A stretch of DNA of 64,000 nucleotides, from NCBI GenBank assembly GCA_002989075.1, contig PSQN01000014.1:310001-374000 (forward strand), in the 5' to 3' direction. Source of the stretch: Arthonia radiata (lineage: Eukaryota; Ascomycota; Arthoniomycetes; Arthoniales; Arthoniaceae). Shown in pieces: positions 30,133-37,769 of this stretch. Numbering within the stretch: position 1 is the first letter of the stretch; every line of letters starts with the position of its first letter. The notes under the pieces were generated by a model that was not told the origin of the DNA, ran no database searches, and saw only the letters and a program-made list of their open reading frames with translations. Made by a program: the position numbers and the translations under genes.

Positions 30133-30797
30133 CGTAGGTCGTTTTGTGTGAGATGGTGGGGTTAGTGGGGTGAAAGGGAAGGTGAGGTATACAGAAGGAA
30201 GGATTGGATGTGGTGGGGATACGGAGGATTATGTAGCGCTTTGAGTTCGTCTGAAAGCTAGCTTGATGATCCTCCGATCCATGTTGACAGAGCTCAGTGA
30301 ATTGACACCTTGATACGACACGTAATCCACCGTGCATTTGCCCTCTATAGGGGCTTTTCGCCCTCGTGGTTAGCGTAAGCGAAATAGGTCGTTTTCGCGA
30401 GAGCTGAACCGACCCATGGAATGCGTGCGCGCATCTGCTTGGTGTCGGTCCGAAAGAGCCTATGGTTTGGGCTGGAGTCGCGATCGCATCTGCTGGGTGG
30501 CAGATGCGGATGAAGTGGCTGACAAGCTGGCAAGTTCAGCCTCTGCTTGTTGTTCTGCGTCATCTCTTGGTGGACGCACCGTTTGCGACCTCATGCCAGG
30601 CGACAAGTTGTCGAGGCAACGTGTTCAACAATGAAAAACAAGATTTGTGCTGTTTACAACCCTCTGCAAAGCCCAGTCCCCATATTACCTGTACCCACAT
30701 TTTTTTTTCCTATGGTTCATTCTCGCCTTTCAGCTCACAAACACTATTGCTACTACATCAGAGAGTTTTCGGAAACATCAACACCACAGCAGATACC
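30133..30797. other. Shared promoter space of copies B and C
   Basis: Divergent promoters for B (left) and C (right). An open frame runs through from 30462 into copy C, but its composition before 30798 is not like the family and I treat it as 5' leader. Confidence 0.45.
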
Positions 30798-31106
30798 ATG
30801 CCACAAGCAACCTCCTCAGCAAAACGTGCGCCGGAAGTGGAATACGAAGTAATCAGAGAAGAGGACGTACCCGACGAAGAGACGCAGTTTCTACTCAACG
30901 ACAAGCATGCGAAGAAGGAGTCGGTCGACCGCAACGATCACTGGCACGTTTGGCACGCGGGTGCTTGGTACCACATCTTCGCTGATGTACACCAGAAGGT
31001 GCAGAAATGGGACGGCTCATGGGTGGACAATCCCCATGGGCGGAGCTTCCGGCATCTGTTCAAGAAAGGGGAGGCACCGCCACCGACACCGCCACCTGCG
31101 CGGTAG
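30798..31106 (+). CDS. Small Trp-rich family protein, copy C (intact)
   Basis: The ATG at 30798 gives 102 aa: MPQATSSAKRAPEVEYEVIR, then EEDVPDEETQFLLNDKHAKK, HWHVWHAGAWYHIF, VQKWDGSWVDNPHGRSF, RHLFKKGEAPPPTPPP. This is the best-preserved copy and defines the family layout: basic N-tail, acidic helix, WH-box, W-DG-W box, PHG-x-FRxLFKK box, Pro-rich tail. No signal peptide or membrane helix, so probably cytoplasmic or nuclear. I do not recognise the family. Copy B shares the order VWHxGA...FPHxRxFRYLFKR, which rules out chance similarity. Confidence 0.7.
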   Translation: MPQATSSAKRAPEVEYEVIREEDVPDEETQFLLNDKHAKKESVDRNDHWHVWHAGAWYHIFADVHQKVQKWDGSWVDNPHGRSFRHLFKKGEAPPPTPPPAR

Positions 31107-31568
31107 ACCGCGTGACTAGAGAAGTCTTGAGATCTGTCGCGACGTGGAAGATCCTATTTTAGTGTCGGAGTGAGACCTGAACGAAGTGTCAGTGAACAAT
31201 GGCCGACGCACAGACCGGTAGGAGGATCTGGTGATGCACGTCTGCTTTAGGTTCAATCAGCGACTGGGACCTGGTAGACGCGGGAGATTGGGACAGGTAG
31301 TTGAAGGATCTAGCCTGTGCTTATTGATCTACGTCCTGTCTTGATCATGTAGGGTGCGATTCGAAGTGCGTAGGTGTCCCGACATAGAAGGCGAGATATT
31401 TGCTATTCTATAAACTCTACCAAATGTAGATATCATTCGGGAATTAAGTGTGATTGTATCGTATCTCAGCTTTTCCCCTCCTGCGTGTACTTCGCCTTGA
31501 AACTTACAAACGCCATCATCGCAGTTCGAGAACACGACGTGCCCGAAATCCTGTAGAGGATAGACGCG
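31107..31568. other. Spacer between copies C and D
   Basis: 3' flank of copy C and promoter of copy D; nothing else seen. Confidence 0.4.
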
Positions 31569-31802
31569 ATGCCACAGGAAACTGAGCTGACAGAGGAACA
31601 AAGGCTCCTGATCACGCTCAACCGCAAACATGACAATGGCCAGTCCATATGGCATAACAGAAAATGGTGGATCTGGCACAACGACGAGTGGTATTATGAA
31701 AACGGTGATGTGATGAGGCGTCAGAGATTGGTAAACGGGCGATTGGTGGATGTTCCACGTCTTTATCGTAAGATCTTCCAGAGACACCCCGGCGGCGCGT
31801 AG
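31569..31802 (+). CDS. Small Trp-rich family protein, copy D (short)
   Basis: 77 aa from ATG 31569: MPQETELTEEQRLLITLNRK, HDNGQSIWHNRKWWIWHND, EWYYENGDV, RRQRLVNGRLVDVPRLYRKI. It shares its opening MPQ with copy C and LNRKHDN/LNRRHDN with copy A. The second box (VNGRLVDVP) has lost its Trp residues, and the Pro-rich tail is missing. It is likely a diverged member of the same family. Function unknown. Confidence 0.62.
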   Translation: MPQETELTEEQRLLITLNRKHDNGQSIWHNRKWWIWHNDEWYYENGDVMRRQRLVNGRLVDVPRLYRKIFQRHPGGA

Positions 31803-32514: not shown

Positions 32515-32522
32515 TTGCTGAA
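32515..32522. repeat. Left 8-bp target-site duplication of the hAT MITE
   Basis: TTGCTGAA, identical to 32965-32972 on the other side of the element. Confidence 0.85.
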
Positions 32523-32964
32523 CAGGGTTCCTTTCAGGACAAGATTTTCGTAGCTTAATTAGATTAGTGAGATTCTAAGCTAATTTCGGTGGTAGTCTTG
32601 CTTGATACGTCGCCTAATCAATTTTGCTAATCTAGCTTAGTAATCTTAATTAATAGGGTAAATAGGGGTACCGCAGTAGTTCTAGGTAATAAGTGTGCTC
32701 TTAGGATTGTTCTGAGCACTCTATTGTTATTATAACGTTAGTATTATAAGTTGATTATCTTTTACTAGGCGCTAAGGAGGCCTGACTTGCAGCATTTTTG
32801 GTAATAAAAAGGGGTTTAAGCCTCTTAAGAAGAAGCTTAACAGAATTACTTAACACAGTCAGATTTAAGCCAGCTAGCCTTTAGCTTGATTGAGTATTTT
32901 TTGGTAGGATTGACAAGATCGCCGATCAATCCAAGAAATGAGGATTAGCCTGAAAGGAACCCTG
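32523..32964. mobile_element. hAT-type non-autonomous DNA transposon (MITE)
   Basis: A 442-bp AT-rich element with perfect 16-bp terminal inverted repeats, CAGGGTTCCTTTCAGG at the left and its complement at the right. It is flanked by a perfect 8-bp direct repeat TTGCTGAA (32515-32522 and 32965-32972). An 8-bp target duplication with CAGGG-type ends is the hAT superfamily signature. No transposase ORF is present. The interior is rich in TTA/TAA and poor in CpA, consistent with repeat-induced C-to-T mutation. Intact ends and duplication point to a fairly recent insertion. Confidence 0.9.
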
Positions 32965-32972
32965 TTGCTGAA
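32965..32972. repeat. Right 8-bp target-site duplication of the hAT MITE
   Basis: TTGCTGAA, identical to 32515-32522. Confidence 0.85.
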
Positions 32973-33367
32973 GACTGTCGTCCTAGGTTTGGTCCACTAC
33001 GTGCTGCAGCAGAGTCTAGTCAGGGCCTCTATTGGCAGTGCACTCGATGAATCGGATCGGACCTGATTTGGAATGGTAGCGCACATTACTATACGCAAAC
33101 GAGACACTGTCATCCAACCCGGGAAGACTGTTGAATACAGATACACGTATCTTACTGAACATTTTGGTTAATCTGACATCCAAACCGACCCATCTTCAAT
33201 ATCTACCTCCAATCCACTGATATCGGGTCCATTGGGAACACTGTCTGTTGGTCGCCTGTCCGTCTCCATATCACCTGCATGGTTGCCAACGTGCTTCCTT
33301 TAACGGCCTGTTAGCATGCTAGATCTTGAGTGGCTTTCATTCGCTTCACAGAGAAAACCATCAAATC

Positions 33368-34195
33368 TTACCAGATGACTTGGAAATCGGTAGGGCTAGC
33401 GAATTGAAAGTGCCACCCTCCAGCGTTATTTCCAGCTCGCCATAAGAATGATTCCGCCATAGGATCCACAACTCGACGCTCTCCTGGTACCTCGGTGCGA
33501 CTTCGACCTATTTCGTCCTCGAAATAGTCACAGTCTTCTATATCCCGGTTGAAAACGAGTACTCCGGGCTGGAGCAGCGATTCCACAAGTAAGGTCCGTC
33601 CCTACTCCAAAGTCAGCACAATCGTAACTTTTTCTATGATTATCTTGATGAAGCCCGTTCTTACATCGACCACGAAGCACCAACCATAGACAGTATTCCC
33701 TCGCTTGTTGTCGTTGTAGTACCAGACCCATGCTTCTACGAAGCACCAAACTTTCTTCGTTTGTCGATTAGTGAGTTGTTCGCGGATTCTGACTCTCCGA
33801 AAGACCCAGATGCCATCATCGTGTTCTTCATCCACAGGAACTGTAGCCCCGCCGTGCTTTTTCATAAGCTCTTCTGGGTGGTGTCCTCTCGCGTATGTTT
33901 CTATGCCTGTTGTCTTACCCGCGACTTCGGGAATGATCTGTTCCAGTATTGACACTCCAGAATCTCGAGCGTGCTCAAGGAGCTCGACTGTCTGTTCATC
34001 CGAAAGCTCAGTGATTCTACGAAATATCATGCCGCAAGTAGCACTGGGGATTCGTCAGTCAAGGTGGTGACAACGTAGCTAAGACTCGTACCACTCAGTC
34101 TCCTCTTCAGCTTGATATTGGCTTACGGCGCCGCAAGATGGACAACTGTTCAGGTTTGCGGCATCTTCGCTAACACCTTGGATGTTGAATACCAT
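33368..34195 (-). CDS. Zinc-ribbon C-terminal module (probably the 3' half of the PNP/ULD gene)
   Basis: Three exons 34195-34092, 34043-33665 and 33601-33368 (introns 48 and 63 bp); 238 aa if started at the ATG 34195. After splicing it reads MVFNIQGVSEDAANLNSCPS, CGAVSQYQAEEETECATCGM, i.e. CxxC-x15-CxxC, a zinc ribbon assembled across the first intron. Then come FRRITELSDEQTVELLEHAR, WVFRRVRIREQL, VWCFVEAWVWYYND and WCFVVD-GRTLLVESLLQPGV. An apparent TAG at 33604-33602 is only the acceptor of a normal intron (GTAAGA donor, GCTGAC branch). The frame is open upstream of 34195 through EECFAPGQLVRMS back to the TAG that ends the upstream ORF, so this is most likely not a separate gene. Confidence 0.6.
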
Positions 34196-34234
34196 GCTCA
34201 TTCTAACAAGCTGCCCAGGTGCAAAGCATTCTTC

Positions 34235-35655
34235 CTAACGTTTACGAAGGTCGATGTCGCGCTTGCGTCGAAGGTCAGTGAGGACGAATTCTCCATCGCG
34301 GATCTTTTGGGAAGCGGATCCGTAAGGTCTCAGGTTGTTCTCTAAAACGCTAAGCAAGGCCTTGGTCCTAGAGAGTTAGCTACCTGGCGCGGCGAGGCGT
34401 GACTGTGACTTCTCACCTCGAGGGAGCGTATGAAGTCCAGGTGGAATGGATAGCTTTTCCCAGTAGGGTCCACAAGATACACAGGGTCTTGCCTAGGAAC
34501 TTCAAGGGGCAGCCTAGTTAAGGCACGCTCAACACTGGTGAGAACTCGCACCGCCGTCTCGTTCGTTGAACTGCGTTACTATCTTTAGAGAATTCAAAAA
34601 CAGGGATAGTGTGCCTCACGCCATTCCTCGCAGCCAATTGATGATTGTTTGGTTTTGGGCGAAGATCTGTTCGAATCACCATACTAGTCAGTCCCTTATG
34701 CAACAATCCTGTCGTTGAACGGTACCGTCTAAGTAGGCGCAGATGAGCTCACCTGCTGAGTTACAGTTGCAGCAGTAGGTTGAAGATCAACTTGTTCCGA
34801 GGGTAGAACTTGTAACAGACTTTTACAGTAGCAAGCCGCCGCCACCGACGCAAATTTGTGCCAGCCATCGTTCTTGTGCGAGTCGCAGTAGTCGCTGATT
34901 CCGCGGACAACGAGGCAAGGGAAAGTGTTCATCAAGCCACAAGCCTCCATCTCGAAGCACAATGGACTGCCGTGGACCTGTTCCATGAGGTCAGCTCTTC
35001 TGCTGCCGCTGGTTTTGATGACCCAGGATCCTGAGGCAATGAGCCCGTAGTGTACGACTGGCACTGACCGAGGCTGACGCGCTATTTGTTTGGTCAAATC
35101 GCCGGCCTCGTATAGAACATCCGCGAGGCCTTCGGTCGACACCAGGTGCTCAGGCTTGACTTCATTGAGGTATTGTTGGAATTGCGTATCGCCGAGACCC
35201 ATGTTTGTCTCTACAAAGACTGCTGCATTCCGCAAAGGCAAAGGTGGCCTGTCTAGATGGCCGGTAGGCTCGAATCCATTCTCCGTGAGTTTCCCGGCGT
35301 CATAATATACGACACCTCCATGTCCTGCGCCAGGCTTGCTTACTACAACATCTCCAAGTCGAATGTCAGCTGTCTTTGTAGGAACACCAATACCAATCCC
35401 AGACAGCAGATTGATCTTAATCTGTGGAAAGGTTCTCATCAGATGAGTTGCGCAGTGATTTGCTGGACTCGGGCCTGCCTCTCCAGCGCAGGCGATGACA
35501 ACGTTGTGGCCGTTGACTCGTCCCGTTGCATACATGTTCGGATCATCTGCCGGCTTTCGCGGGCATTCATAAACTTGATCAAACATGGCTCGAGCGGCCA
35601 TAAACTCGACTGGTAGAATGGTGATCCAACCCACGTGATACATGTTCCGATCCAT
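34235..35655 (-). CDS. Nucleoside-phosphorylase-domain protein with ubiquitin-like domain (NLR-related)
   Basis: Four exons 35655-34753, 34666-34620, 34570-34417 and 34360-34235 (introns 86, 49, 56 bp), 409 aa to a TAG. The N-terminal PNP_UDP-type domain has YHVGWITILPVEFMAARAM, GIGIGVPTKTADIRLGDVVV, VVHYGLIASGSWVIK, CFEMEACGLMNTFPCLVVRG and DYCDSHKNDGWHKFAS, the glycine loop, phosphate/ribose-binding and Asp-containing base-binding elements of the family. A short linker (IFAQNQTIINWLRGM) leads to a ubiquitin-like domain: LEVPRQDPVYLVDPTG, PFHLDFIRSLEALLSVLENN, KIRDGEFVL. Phosphorylase N-domains are frequent in fungal NLR-like proteins, where NACHT repeats usually follow; here there are none. 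The ATG at 35655 is chosen because the longer frame upstream lies inside a retroelement. Confidence 0.75.
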
Positions 35656-35720
35656 GATGTCGAAATAGATCGGTATCACGGGTACTGTGCCGTTGGCGTT
35701 GAGTGTATGCTTCACCTCGG

Positions 35721-35733
35721 CGTTACTATTCGT
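35721..35733. repeat. 13-bp target-site duplication, copy next to the tail
   Basis: CGTTACTATTCGT, identical to 36311-36323. Confidence 0.85.
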
Positions 35734-36310
35734 TTTGTTGTTGTTGTTGTTGTAATCATACGCCGACCCAATCCTTTTCAGGATTATGCGGGAGAGTATC
35801 CGCCTATATAGATATCTATCTATATAGGCGCCTGAGGAGTGTATATTTGGAGCGTGTCTCAAGCAGCTTTCGCCACTCTTGGGGTATGAAGCACCGCGTC
35901 TAGTTGTGCGTACTACCTTCGTCTTTACTCAAACGTTTGGGTTGCAGTTACTCTATAGAGTAGAGCTGCCTCTCGTATATTCTTTGAGTAGGCGTTTAGG
36001 AGTAGCGACTTCTCCGCGTCTATGCTACTAAGGTAGCTAATAGGCCGAGAGACGTTTGAGCTCCAATGCAGAACGCTGTTATCGGTATGTGTAGGATACT
36101 CGAGAGGCGATATTGTGCGTGGGAGCGCGTTGAGGGCGCGATAAGGAGTTTAGTGGTAGCTTTCTGGGCGGAGGCGACTATCGAGAACTGTGCTCAGTAC
36201 ACCCCTATATGTCTACCCAGAGACTTTATTTAACGTCAGGTATCTAGCTTTATCTAGTGTGCTGACTGGCCATTCCTGACGGGATACATTTAGCGCCTGG
36301 CCCAAGGCGC
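35734..36310 (-). mobile_element. 5'-truncated non-LTR retroelement (LINE-like) with (CAA)n tail
   Basis: A 577-bp segment flanked by a perfect 13-bp direct repeat CGTTACTATTCGT (35721-35733 and 36311-36323). Read on the minus strand, it ends in about five CAA units plus AAA immediately before the downstream repeat copy. A simple-repeat tail next to a variable-length target duplication is the mark of target-primed reverse transcription. A protein-like fragment, SLLLNAYSKNIREAALLYRV, lies in the middle, and a hairpin with 14-bp arms (CGCCTATATAGATA) lies near 35800-35829. A 5'-truncated LINE 3' end fits best; a SINE is possible. It sits about 65 bp upstream of the PNP-domain ATG, in its promoter or leader. 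Confidence 0.75.
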
Positions 36311-36323
36311 CGTTACTATTCGT
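36311..36323. repeat. 13-bp target-site duplication, distal copy
   Basis: CGTTACTATTCGT, identical to 35721-35733. Confidence 0.85.
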
Positions 36324-37031
36324 GTCAGGTAAAGCTGCCGCGAGAGCCAATCAATGGAGCTTTCGCGAGGTGTAAGTACTGTCTTCAACTTCACAGAGCA
36401 TCTGACAGGGCAGCTGTTTGCTGTCTACGAATGTATTTGGAACAGAGAAAAATCCTCGCGCATGTACTCATCATCCCCACATTGGGTCTCAAGTTACGAG
36501 CATGCCTTCACGGGTTGCCACTGGCCTGACATGCAGCGAGGCAACTGCATCGCCTGCACAGCCCCGATCGTCGCTGCCTGACGAGCATGGTAGGGTCGAT
36601 ACTCGTCTAGGGGCCTTCTCGCTAATTTCAGCGTTTTCAAAAATCAATCTAGGAATACCTAGTAGTCAAATGTGGTTTATCAAACGTAGATTCTGTAGAG
36701 GGAAAAAATGGCAGGTGGTTGGTCCTGTAAATTCGGTGGCGGGACTGCGCCAAGCCTTTCCACCCCCGTCCGTGCATCCTTTTTCTCAACAGTCAGTCAA
36801 AACAATTGCAGGGATGATCATTGATCACTATACACCTTTTCATATTCATCCAAGACTAGTGACGACCTGAGATACAGAAAAACCACCACAATCGAGAACA
36901 CTGGTGCACAACAACCTGACACCCAGACAGCAATAAGTCTTGGCGCTGTGGCGCTTTCTCCATCGTCCACGTCACGTGTTTAACAGCATATTGATACCCT
37001 CGCAAAGATGCGCTGAGGCTCTGCTATTAGA
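36324..37031. other. Intergenic stretch
   Basis: About 700 bases without a supported gene. It is the former upstream region of the PNP gene and the promoter of the AlkB-like gene. Confidence 0.4.
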
Positions 37032-37769
37032 ATGGCTTACAGTCCGATACCAGCATTCAGCACTCAAAACAGTCCATCCATGACCTCCCCGTCTCTGAAC
37101 GACCACACAATCCCCACGCTCCCTCCCACCTTCACTTACATCCCCTCCTTCCTCACATCCTCGCAAGAACGGGACCTTCTCAACCAAATCAACGCACGCC
37201 CGTGGATCTCCCTCTCAAAGCGGCGTCTGCAAGTCTATCCCGCCCAGCTGACCGCAAACAACGTCTTACTATCCAAAGACCCTTTGCCAGATTGGCTGAC
37301 GGAATTGAAAGCGAGGCTGGATGAACTGGGCTGTTTCGACGGTGCAGGCAAGGACGGCGAGAAAGCCGAGATGAACCACGTGCTCATCAACAATTACCGC
37401 CCCGGCGAGGGCATCATGCCGCACGAAGACGGGCCGGCGTATTATCCTGTGACAGCTACTGTGTCGCTTGGGTCGCATACTGTGCTTGACGTCGCGGAGA
37501 AGGGCGAGGATAGTAGGAGGTGGCGGATATTGCAAGAGCCGAGAAGTCTGCTTGTTACGCGGGGCGAGGCTTATGGGGAATTGATGCACGGTATTGCGGA
37601 GGTGGAGGTTGATGAGGAGCTTGGGGAGGGGAGTGTGGCGAATTGGGAGACGGTCGAAGAGAAGGCGTTGTATGAGGGGCGGAAAGAGAGGGCCGAGAGG
37701 GTAAGTTTGACGTGTAGGAGTGTGAAGCGGGTGTCGAAATTGGGGAGTAAGTTGATGGGAAAGCGGTAA
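37032..37769 (+). CDS. AlkB-like Fe(II)/2-oxoglutarate dioxygenase (ALKBH6 type)
   Basis: A single exon of 245 aa. TFTYIPSFLTSSQERDLL is the usual AlkB entry. NHVLINNYRPGEGIMPHEDG carries the iron ligands His131 and Asp133, LMHGI the third ligand His186, and RVSLTCRSV the Arg residues that bind 2-oxoglutarate. Short length, the NYRPGEGI-PHEDGPAY phrase and YPVTATVSLGSHTVLD point to the ALKBH6 subgroup, thought to act on alkylated nucleic acid. The start is the first ATG in the frame. The C-terminal part after His186 is acidic and variable. Complete and apparently functional. Confidence 0.9.
   Translation: MAYSPIPAFSTQNSPSMTSPSLNDHTIPTLPPTFTYIPSFLTSSQERDLLNQINARPWISLSKRRLQVYPAQLTANNVLLSKDPLPDWLTELKARLDELGCFDGAGKDGEKAEMNHVLINNYRPGEGIMPHEDGPAYYPVTATVSLGSHTVLDVAEKGEDSRRWRILQEPRSLLVTRGEAYGELMHGIAEVEVDEELGEGSVANWETVEEKALYEGRKERAERVSLTCRSVKRVSKLGSKLMGKR

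Follow-up and report, generated by a model that had tools for sequence, protein, structure and literature searches.

A PNP-family gene interrupted by a single TAG

The analyzed window, a 64,000-nt stretch of Arthonia radiata DNA, carries on its minus strand a PNP-family gene whose joined frame runs from 35655 to 33368 in six exons and 661 codons, with a TAG as its sole internal stop (Table 1). The RPB2 of this genome is 95% identical to that of a Coniocarpon cinnabarinum MAG, with three further sequences at 86-88% and all others of the 120 listed at no more than 75%; this places the genome close to Coniocarpon (Arthoniales, Arthoniomycetes). A frame of this length broken by one TAG had been the core of the original prediction, and we recovered it with the same frame, stop, and coordinates. 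Close to the gene lie a miniature transposon, a palindrome, and several further frames, which are described in the last section.

Table 1. Features of the PNP-family gene and its surroundings (positions in the window).
Feature	Position	Strand	Remarks
Exon 1	35655-34753	-	PNP_UDP_1 domain; residues 1-301
Intron 1	34752-34667	-	86 nt; GTGAGC...CAG
Exon 2, linker	34666-34620	-	frame reading
Intron 2	34619-34571	-	49 nt; GTGAGG...CAG
Exon 3	34570-34417	-	linker and start of ULD_2 (from residue 343)
Intron 3	34416-34361	-	56 nt; GTGAGA...AAG
Exon 4	34360-34092	-	remaining ULD_2 (to residue 426), TAG, first CxxC pair (CPSC)
In-frame TAG, codon 410	34237-34235	-	Trp column in readable relatives
Intron 4	34091-34044	-	48 nt; GTACGA...CAG
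Exon 5	34043-33665	-	second CxxC pair (CATC) and C-terminal region
Intron 5	33664-33602	-	63 nt; GTAAGA...TAG
Exon 6	33601-33368	-	C-terminal end and final TAA
Terminal stop TAA	33370-33368	-	end of joined frame
Miniature transposon	32515-32972		hAT-like
Inverted ends of miniature transposon	32523-32538 and 32949-32964		CAGGGTTCCTTTCAGG
Small Trp-rich frames	30711-31106 and 31557-31802	+	neighboring frames
2OG-FeII_Oxy_2 frame	37029-37769	+	presumably AlkB-like
Palindrome	35801-35830		14-nt perfect arms, 2-nt spacer

Three introns upstream and two downstream of the TAG had been proposed to be intact. Both downstream introns stood as proposed, whereas intron 3 holds only with a qualification: the frame is preserved solely with an AAG acceptor (34363-34361), which lies past a nearer TAG acceptor (34370-34368). 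Use of that TAG acceptor, positioned 7 nt closer to the putative branch site, would disrupt the frame. We consider intron 3 plausible, because the ULD_2 matches of the paralogs on contigs C7 and C16 are likewise split at approximately profile position 27. An alternative placement of intron 2 (34551-34514) was ruled out, being 38 nt long and disruptive of the frame. No intron of 40-150 nt with a GTRNG donor and a YAG acceptor was found that could splice out the TAG while keeping the frame. The in-frame position of the TAG is independent of the splice model, since the two halves of ULD_2 share one frame around it.

The open frame downstream of the TAG is beyond chance. It continues for 251 codons without a stop; mononucleotide shuffles of this stretch averaged 13.1 stops, and 0 of 2000 were stop-free. 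GC content by codon position was 0.60/0.43/0.54 upstream of the TAG and 0.60/0.41/0.48 downstream of it.

Domain architecture and the conserved Trp

In the joined frame, Pfam places PNP_UDP_1 (PF01048) at residues 42-273 (31.9 bits versus a cut-off of 25.1) and ULD_2 (PF22893) at residues 343-426, the latter in one stretch across the TAG (42.9 bits versus a cut-off of 24.5, with the stop entered as X). The exon-3 piece of ULD_2 by itself scored 15.4 bits in the genome search, under the cut-off. Downstream of the TAG are a CPSC and a CATC pair, which look like a zinc ribbon by their motifs, with Pfam Zn_ribbon_8 reaching 11.4 bits versus a cut-off of 34.4. The approximately 190 residues after CATC have no Pfam match above cut-off, and a search of exon 5 together with the four preceding residues of the frame found no confident PDB relative. 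The frame and Pfam thus support the domain order expected from the original prediction, namely PNP, ubiquitin-like, and two CxxC pairs.

Trp occupies the column of the TAG in five of five readable relatives. Four of these are ULD_2 paralogs from the same genome, on contigs C9 (L004), C13 (L005), C7 (L006), and C16 (L009), and the fifth is an Ophidiomyces protein (P0001). Identity to the window piece was 42% for P0001, 27% for both L004 and L005, 11% for L006, and 10% for L009; because the last two are only 10 to 11% identical, their placement also leans on the ULD_2 profile match. A sixth candidate from the same genome, on C1 (L011/L013), was dropped, as it was under the family cut-off and unreadable. 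Because ULD_2 is matched on either side of the TAG and all five relatives have Trp there, we read the locus as one gene, not two, in agreement with the earlier claim that a single gene is broken by a TAG exactly at a conserved Trp. A reading as two genes, of which the second begins at a Met past the TAG, is extremely improbable: the joined frame does have Met codons at positions 422 and 424, but ULD_2 forms one stretch across the TAG in one frame, and the second protein would begin close to the end of that domain.

Homologs of the two parts of the protein

A search of the protein collection with residues 300-640 returned one ULD_2 protein, P0001, which is the hypothetical and partial LOZ41_006009 of Ophidiomyces ophidiicola (34% identity across 49% of the query). 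Like the window gene, it has ULD_2 followed by CxxC; unlike the window gene, it has Trp in place of the TAG, and no PNP domain is listed for it. With the upstream 409 residues as query, 7999 candidates were scored, of which 2264, all PNP proteins, had E values of 1e-10 or lower. The closest among the matches listed were P0122 (311 residues) and P0123 (Trichoderma viride, 277 residues), both 75% identical. Both terminate at or barely beyond the end of exon 1 and its junction with intron 1, and they look like exon-1-only annotations.

Among the 120 PNP proteins listed for the upstream 409-residue query, none aligns past residue 342 of the joined frame, and the listed proteins include no full-length homolog that combines PNP with ULD_2. 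Matches of 633 to 687 residues (P0127, P0128, P0129, P0131, P0132, P0134, P0135, and P0139) were rejected as full-length homologs, as they appear, when read by eye, to consist of two tandem PNP halves.

Predicted function of the PNP domain

When the PNP domain was compared with the PDB, it aligned weakly with MTA/SAH nucleosidases, its EMEA and GISD motifs matching chains of 4wkb and 3dp9 with weak scores (E 0.0024). We take the Glu of the MEA motif and the Asp of the ISD motif to be the catalytic residues of MTA/SAH-type nucleosidases. The best PADLOC match of the domain was a PN-superfamily effector model (69.2 bits). Fungal PNP_UDP domains are described as common effector domains in NLR-type proteins (excerpt of PMC4986451). 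In the bacterial Detocs system, a PNP effector cleaves ATP, and PNP domains are also found in eukaryotic proteins with immune-like architecture (excerpt of PMC11249213). From these comparisons we infer that the PNP domain of the window gene may be an immune-type effector that acts by cleaving a nucleoside or a nucleotide. The whole protein would then be a nucleosidase-type effector under the control of ULD_2 and the putative zinc ribbon.

The fungal NLR-type PNP_UDP proteins (PNP_UDP/NACHT/ANK, as presented in an excerpt of PMC4986451) resemble the window gene in their N-terminal PNP_UDP domain and in belonging to an expanded, variable family. The window gene differs from the NLR type in that Pfam matched neither NACHT nor NB-ARC in the joined frame, which has ULD_2 and the CxxC pairs instead.

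Stop codons and RIP in the PNP family

RIP favors C before A and converts Trp and Gln codons to TAG, and its usual thresholds are a TpA/ApT index above 0.89 and a CpA index, (CpA+TpG)/(ApC+GpT), below 1.03. In the A. radiata genome, a PNP query gave 45 matches, of which 16 contain in-frame stops. For a tally of these stops, 40 loci (L015-L054; several overlapping or in the same place, and five fetched for ULD_2) were aligned to a profile built from 121 PNP sequences. Eleven PNP loci hold 95 in-frame stops (58 TAG, 35 TAA, and 2 TGA), a count that omits the duplicate loci L021 and L022 and may include introns read through; two TAA codons, one in L018 and the other in the C16 copy L043, fall outside the profile alignment and were not tallied. 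The stops of the family stand at Trp, Gln, and other positions.

Loci L035-L042 carry from 4 to 20 stops each, and L036-L042 from 8 to 20. In L036-L042 the TpA/ApT index is 1.61-1.93 and the CpA index 0.31-0.58; the corresponding values are 1.29 and 0.93 for L035 and 0.69 and 1.22 for the whole window. These loci form part of longer repeated units, with L035 and L037 matching at 85% over 3.9 kb and L041 and L053 at 82% over 3.5 kb. We read the stops in L035-L042 as RIP.

Other loci of the family have a single stop. L053 (C9:1572912-1573826) has one TAG at a PNP Trp, in a column where 95% of the profile sequences having a residue there have Trp, and its indices are borderline (0.98/1.05); L041 and L042 are RIP-mutated copies of it. 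L052 has one TAG where Gln stands in 71%, and its PNP match shifts frame once, which may reflect an intron or a frameshift. L043 has one TGA. Since the single TAG falls at a Trp in L053 and at a Gln in L052, single TAGs arise in this family irrespective of the residue. As a control, stops were counted in protein-kinase matches from the same genome (123 of 160 candidates scored, introns read through included). Stops occurred in 25 of 136 matches, comprising 9 TAG, 14 TAA, and 17 TGA, so that TAG is not in excess among kinases.

The window gene lies outside the RIP thresholds, both as a whole (0.76/1.14) and in its parts before (0.71/1.18) and after (0.80/1.07) the TAG, the latter part leaning in the RIP direction. 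A 1-kb slice at 33501-34500 is beyond both thresholds (0.92/0.98), and the gene has RIP-like flanks at 32520-32975 (1.44/0.95) and 35656-36700 (1.21/0.97). Searches of the same genome by DNA and by protein found no second copy of the gene. The RIP-mutated loci L036-L042 are like the window gene in family membership and in having stops at conserved Trp and Gln positions, and unlike it in having 8 to 20 stops and strong indices rather than one stop and near-background indices.

Origin of the stop codon

We consider it likely that the locus is a recent nonsense allele of a single PNP-family gene at the conserved ULD_2 Trp codon. In the sequenced individual, this Trp codon would recently have mutated to TAG. 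The mRNA would then either give a 409-residue protein, with a whole PNP domain, a partial ULD_2, and no zinc ribbon, or be degraded, and the contribution of ULD_2 and the zinc ribbon to the protein would thereby be lost. Given that RIP makes TAG out of Trp and Gln codons, finding one TAG at a Trp position is unsurprising in the PNP family. We do not call the window gene itself RIP-mutated, because it is single copy and its indices are near background. The best reading of the origin of the TAG is an ordinary transition or slight past RIP at a time when the gene still had a copy; leakage from the neighboring sequence is a possible source, as the flanks and the 1-kb slice look RIP-like.

Downstream of the TAG, each unit of neutral divergence would be expected to produce approximately 35 stops, and three are expected at a divergence of approximately 0.085. 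Because the downstream frame is still open, the lesion is probably younger than approximately 8% neutral divergence, and it is in this weak sense only that the earlier description of the locus as not a long-dead gene can be kept. Counting against a nonsense allele, the frame otherwise looks intact, including both CxxC pairs and both downstream introns; an intact downstream frame is also expected if the full-length product is still made. Most likely, the event is an ordinary one for the mutation-prone, fast-changing PNP family. On present evidence, the locus would be an ordinary nonsense allele from an immunity-like family with fast turnover.

It is unlikely that the TAG is instead the real end of a functional 409-residue PNP protein, with the downstream part a decaying remnant. 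Such a protein would have a whole PNP domain, and many listed PNP proteins are short, the 75%-identical relatives of 277 and 311 residues (which look like exon-1 annotations) being examples. However, a cut at residue 410 falls within a folded domain, whose match extends over residues 343-426, and a second stop is absent from the downstream frame.

RNA editing as an alternative

Restorative editing would convert the UAG to UIG, read as UGG, and yield the full-length protein only at some stage or under some stress. We regard this as very unlikely, and as highly improbable the fuller proposal that an Arthoniomycete employs A-to-I editing as a switch for an immune-type PNP effector, which would exist either as 409 residues lacking the zinc ribbon and a complete ULD_2 or as the full protein. 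Precedents exist in other fungi: Tad2-Tad3-Ame1 edits premature UAG codons (A-to-I) in Fusarium and Neurospora (excerpts of PMC11087585 and PMC11156358), premature-UAG editing is likewise established in the Neurospora OLD-ZAO module (excerpt of PMC12754623), and CHE1 is edited in Fusarium hyphae (excerpt of PMC11169179). Fusarium PUK1 and CHE1 and Neurospora zao-1 and zao-2 are like the window gene in having an in-frame TAG at a Trp in an otherwise open frame. In these genes editing was seen in RNA and hairpin loops are favored, according to the same excerpts, whereas the adenosine of the window gene lies in a predicted stem.

Such editing has as its signature a UAG in place of a conserved Trp where the surrounding frame is intact, and the bases at -1 (U), +1 (G), and +3 (A) agree with the published preference (excerpt of PMC11156358). 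The predicted structure argues against it. The hairpin-loop probability of the adenosine was 0.07, 0.09, 0.04, and 0.01 with flanks of 15, 20, 30, and 50 nt, respectively. Among TAGs of the same mRNA, the window TAG itself included, 13 of 17 were at or above its value with 20-nt flanks and 12 of 16 with 30-nt flanks, the mean probabilities being 0.32 and 0.23. Hairpin-loop siting is a preference of editing, not an absolute rule, and stems are edited in Fusarium too, although they are less favored than loops (excerpt of PMC11156358). The TAG of L053 gave hairpin-loop probabilities from 0.15 to 0.90 by the flank chosen and was not informative.

With respect to the machinery, the families to which OLD and Ame1 belong, OTT_1508 deaminase and DUF726, are matched three times and twice in the genome, respectively, but none of the five matches is on the contig of the window. 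OTT_1508 adjoining the target gene, which is the arrangement of OLD-ZAO, was not found: the three OTT_1508 matches are on C14 and C9, and the window is on C5. In approximately 10 kb of sequence surrounding each OTT_1508 gene, frames of at least 120 codons contained no C2H2 motif. OLD-ZAO occurs in Eurotiomycetes, Sordariomycetes, and one Basidiomycete (excerpt of PMC12754623); because it is reported in that excerpt from Eurotiomycetes and a Basidiomycete, editing capacity may exceed the Sordariomycetes. Against editing, genome-wide editing was reportedly not found in Aspergillus nidulans and Botrytis cinerea fruiting bodies (excerpt of PMC11156358), and our literature search on Arthoniomycetes and RNA editing found no report.

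RIP and similar mutations already account for Trp-position stops in the PNP family. More generally, in genomes with RIP the presence of TAG in place of a conserved Trp says little in favor of editing, because RIP yields TAG from Trp and Gln codons. The original prediction had hinted at transcript editing, visible as an A/G mismatch, and this part of it is not supported, given the predicted stem and the frequency with which RIP yields Trp-position stops here. Editing, if true, would extend nuclear mRNA editing to the Arthoniomycetes and tie it to an immunity-like gene.

Very little credence can be given to the TAG being an erroneous base in the assembly, or belonging to just one of two alleles, or of two strains, present together in the sample. 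Members of the Arthoniales are lichen-forming or related, and a lichen sample may contain several fungal genotypes. However, the TAG is a substitution within a 33.5-Mb, 16-contig assembly, and assemblies of this kind rarely contain substitution errors; moreover, the same type of lesion, with an understood cause, is present at other PNP loci.

Neighborhood of the gene

Approximately 400 bp beyond the 3′ end of the gene is a hAT-like miniature transposon, which we take to belong to the hAT superfamily. It has the inverted ends CAGGGTTCCTTTCAGG and is flanked on both sides by the 8-bp direct repeat TTGCTGAA. Its first 99 to 129 bp match inside two repeats, L069 (near C9:1601456) and L070 (near C9:520555). 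These two repeats, 90% alike across 1.9 kb, are found 6 to 8 kb away from L035 and L036, two RIP-mutated PNP copies. A large repeated element may carry PNP genes as its cargo.

The two small Trp-rich frames on the plus strand neighbor each other and share 32% identity over 76 columns (E 3e-10); neither has a Pfam match above cut-off. Also on the plus strand, the frame at the opposite side of the gene matches Pfam 2OG-FeII_Oxy_2 (43.4 bits versus a cut-off of 31.2), and we assume it to be AlkB-like. The perfect palindrome is located approximately 145 bp upstream of the start codon of the PNP-family gene.
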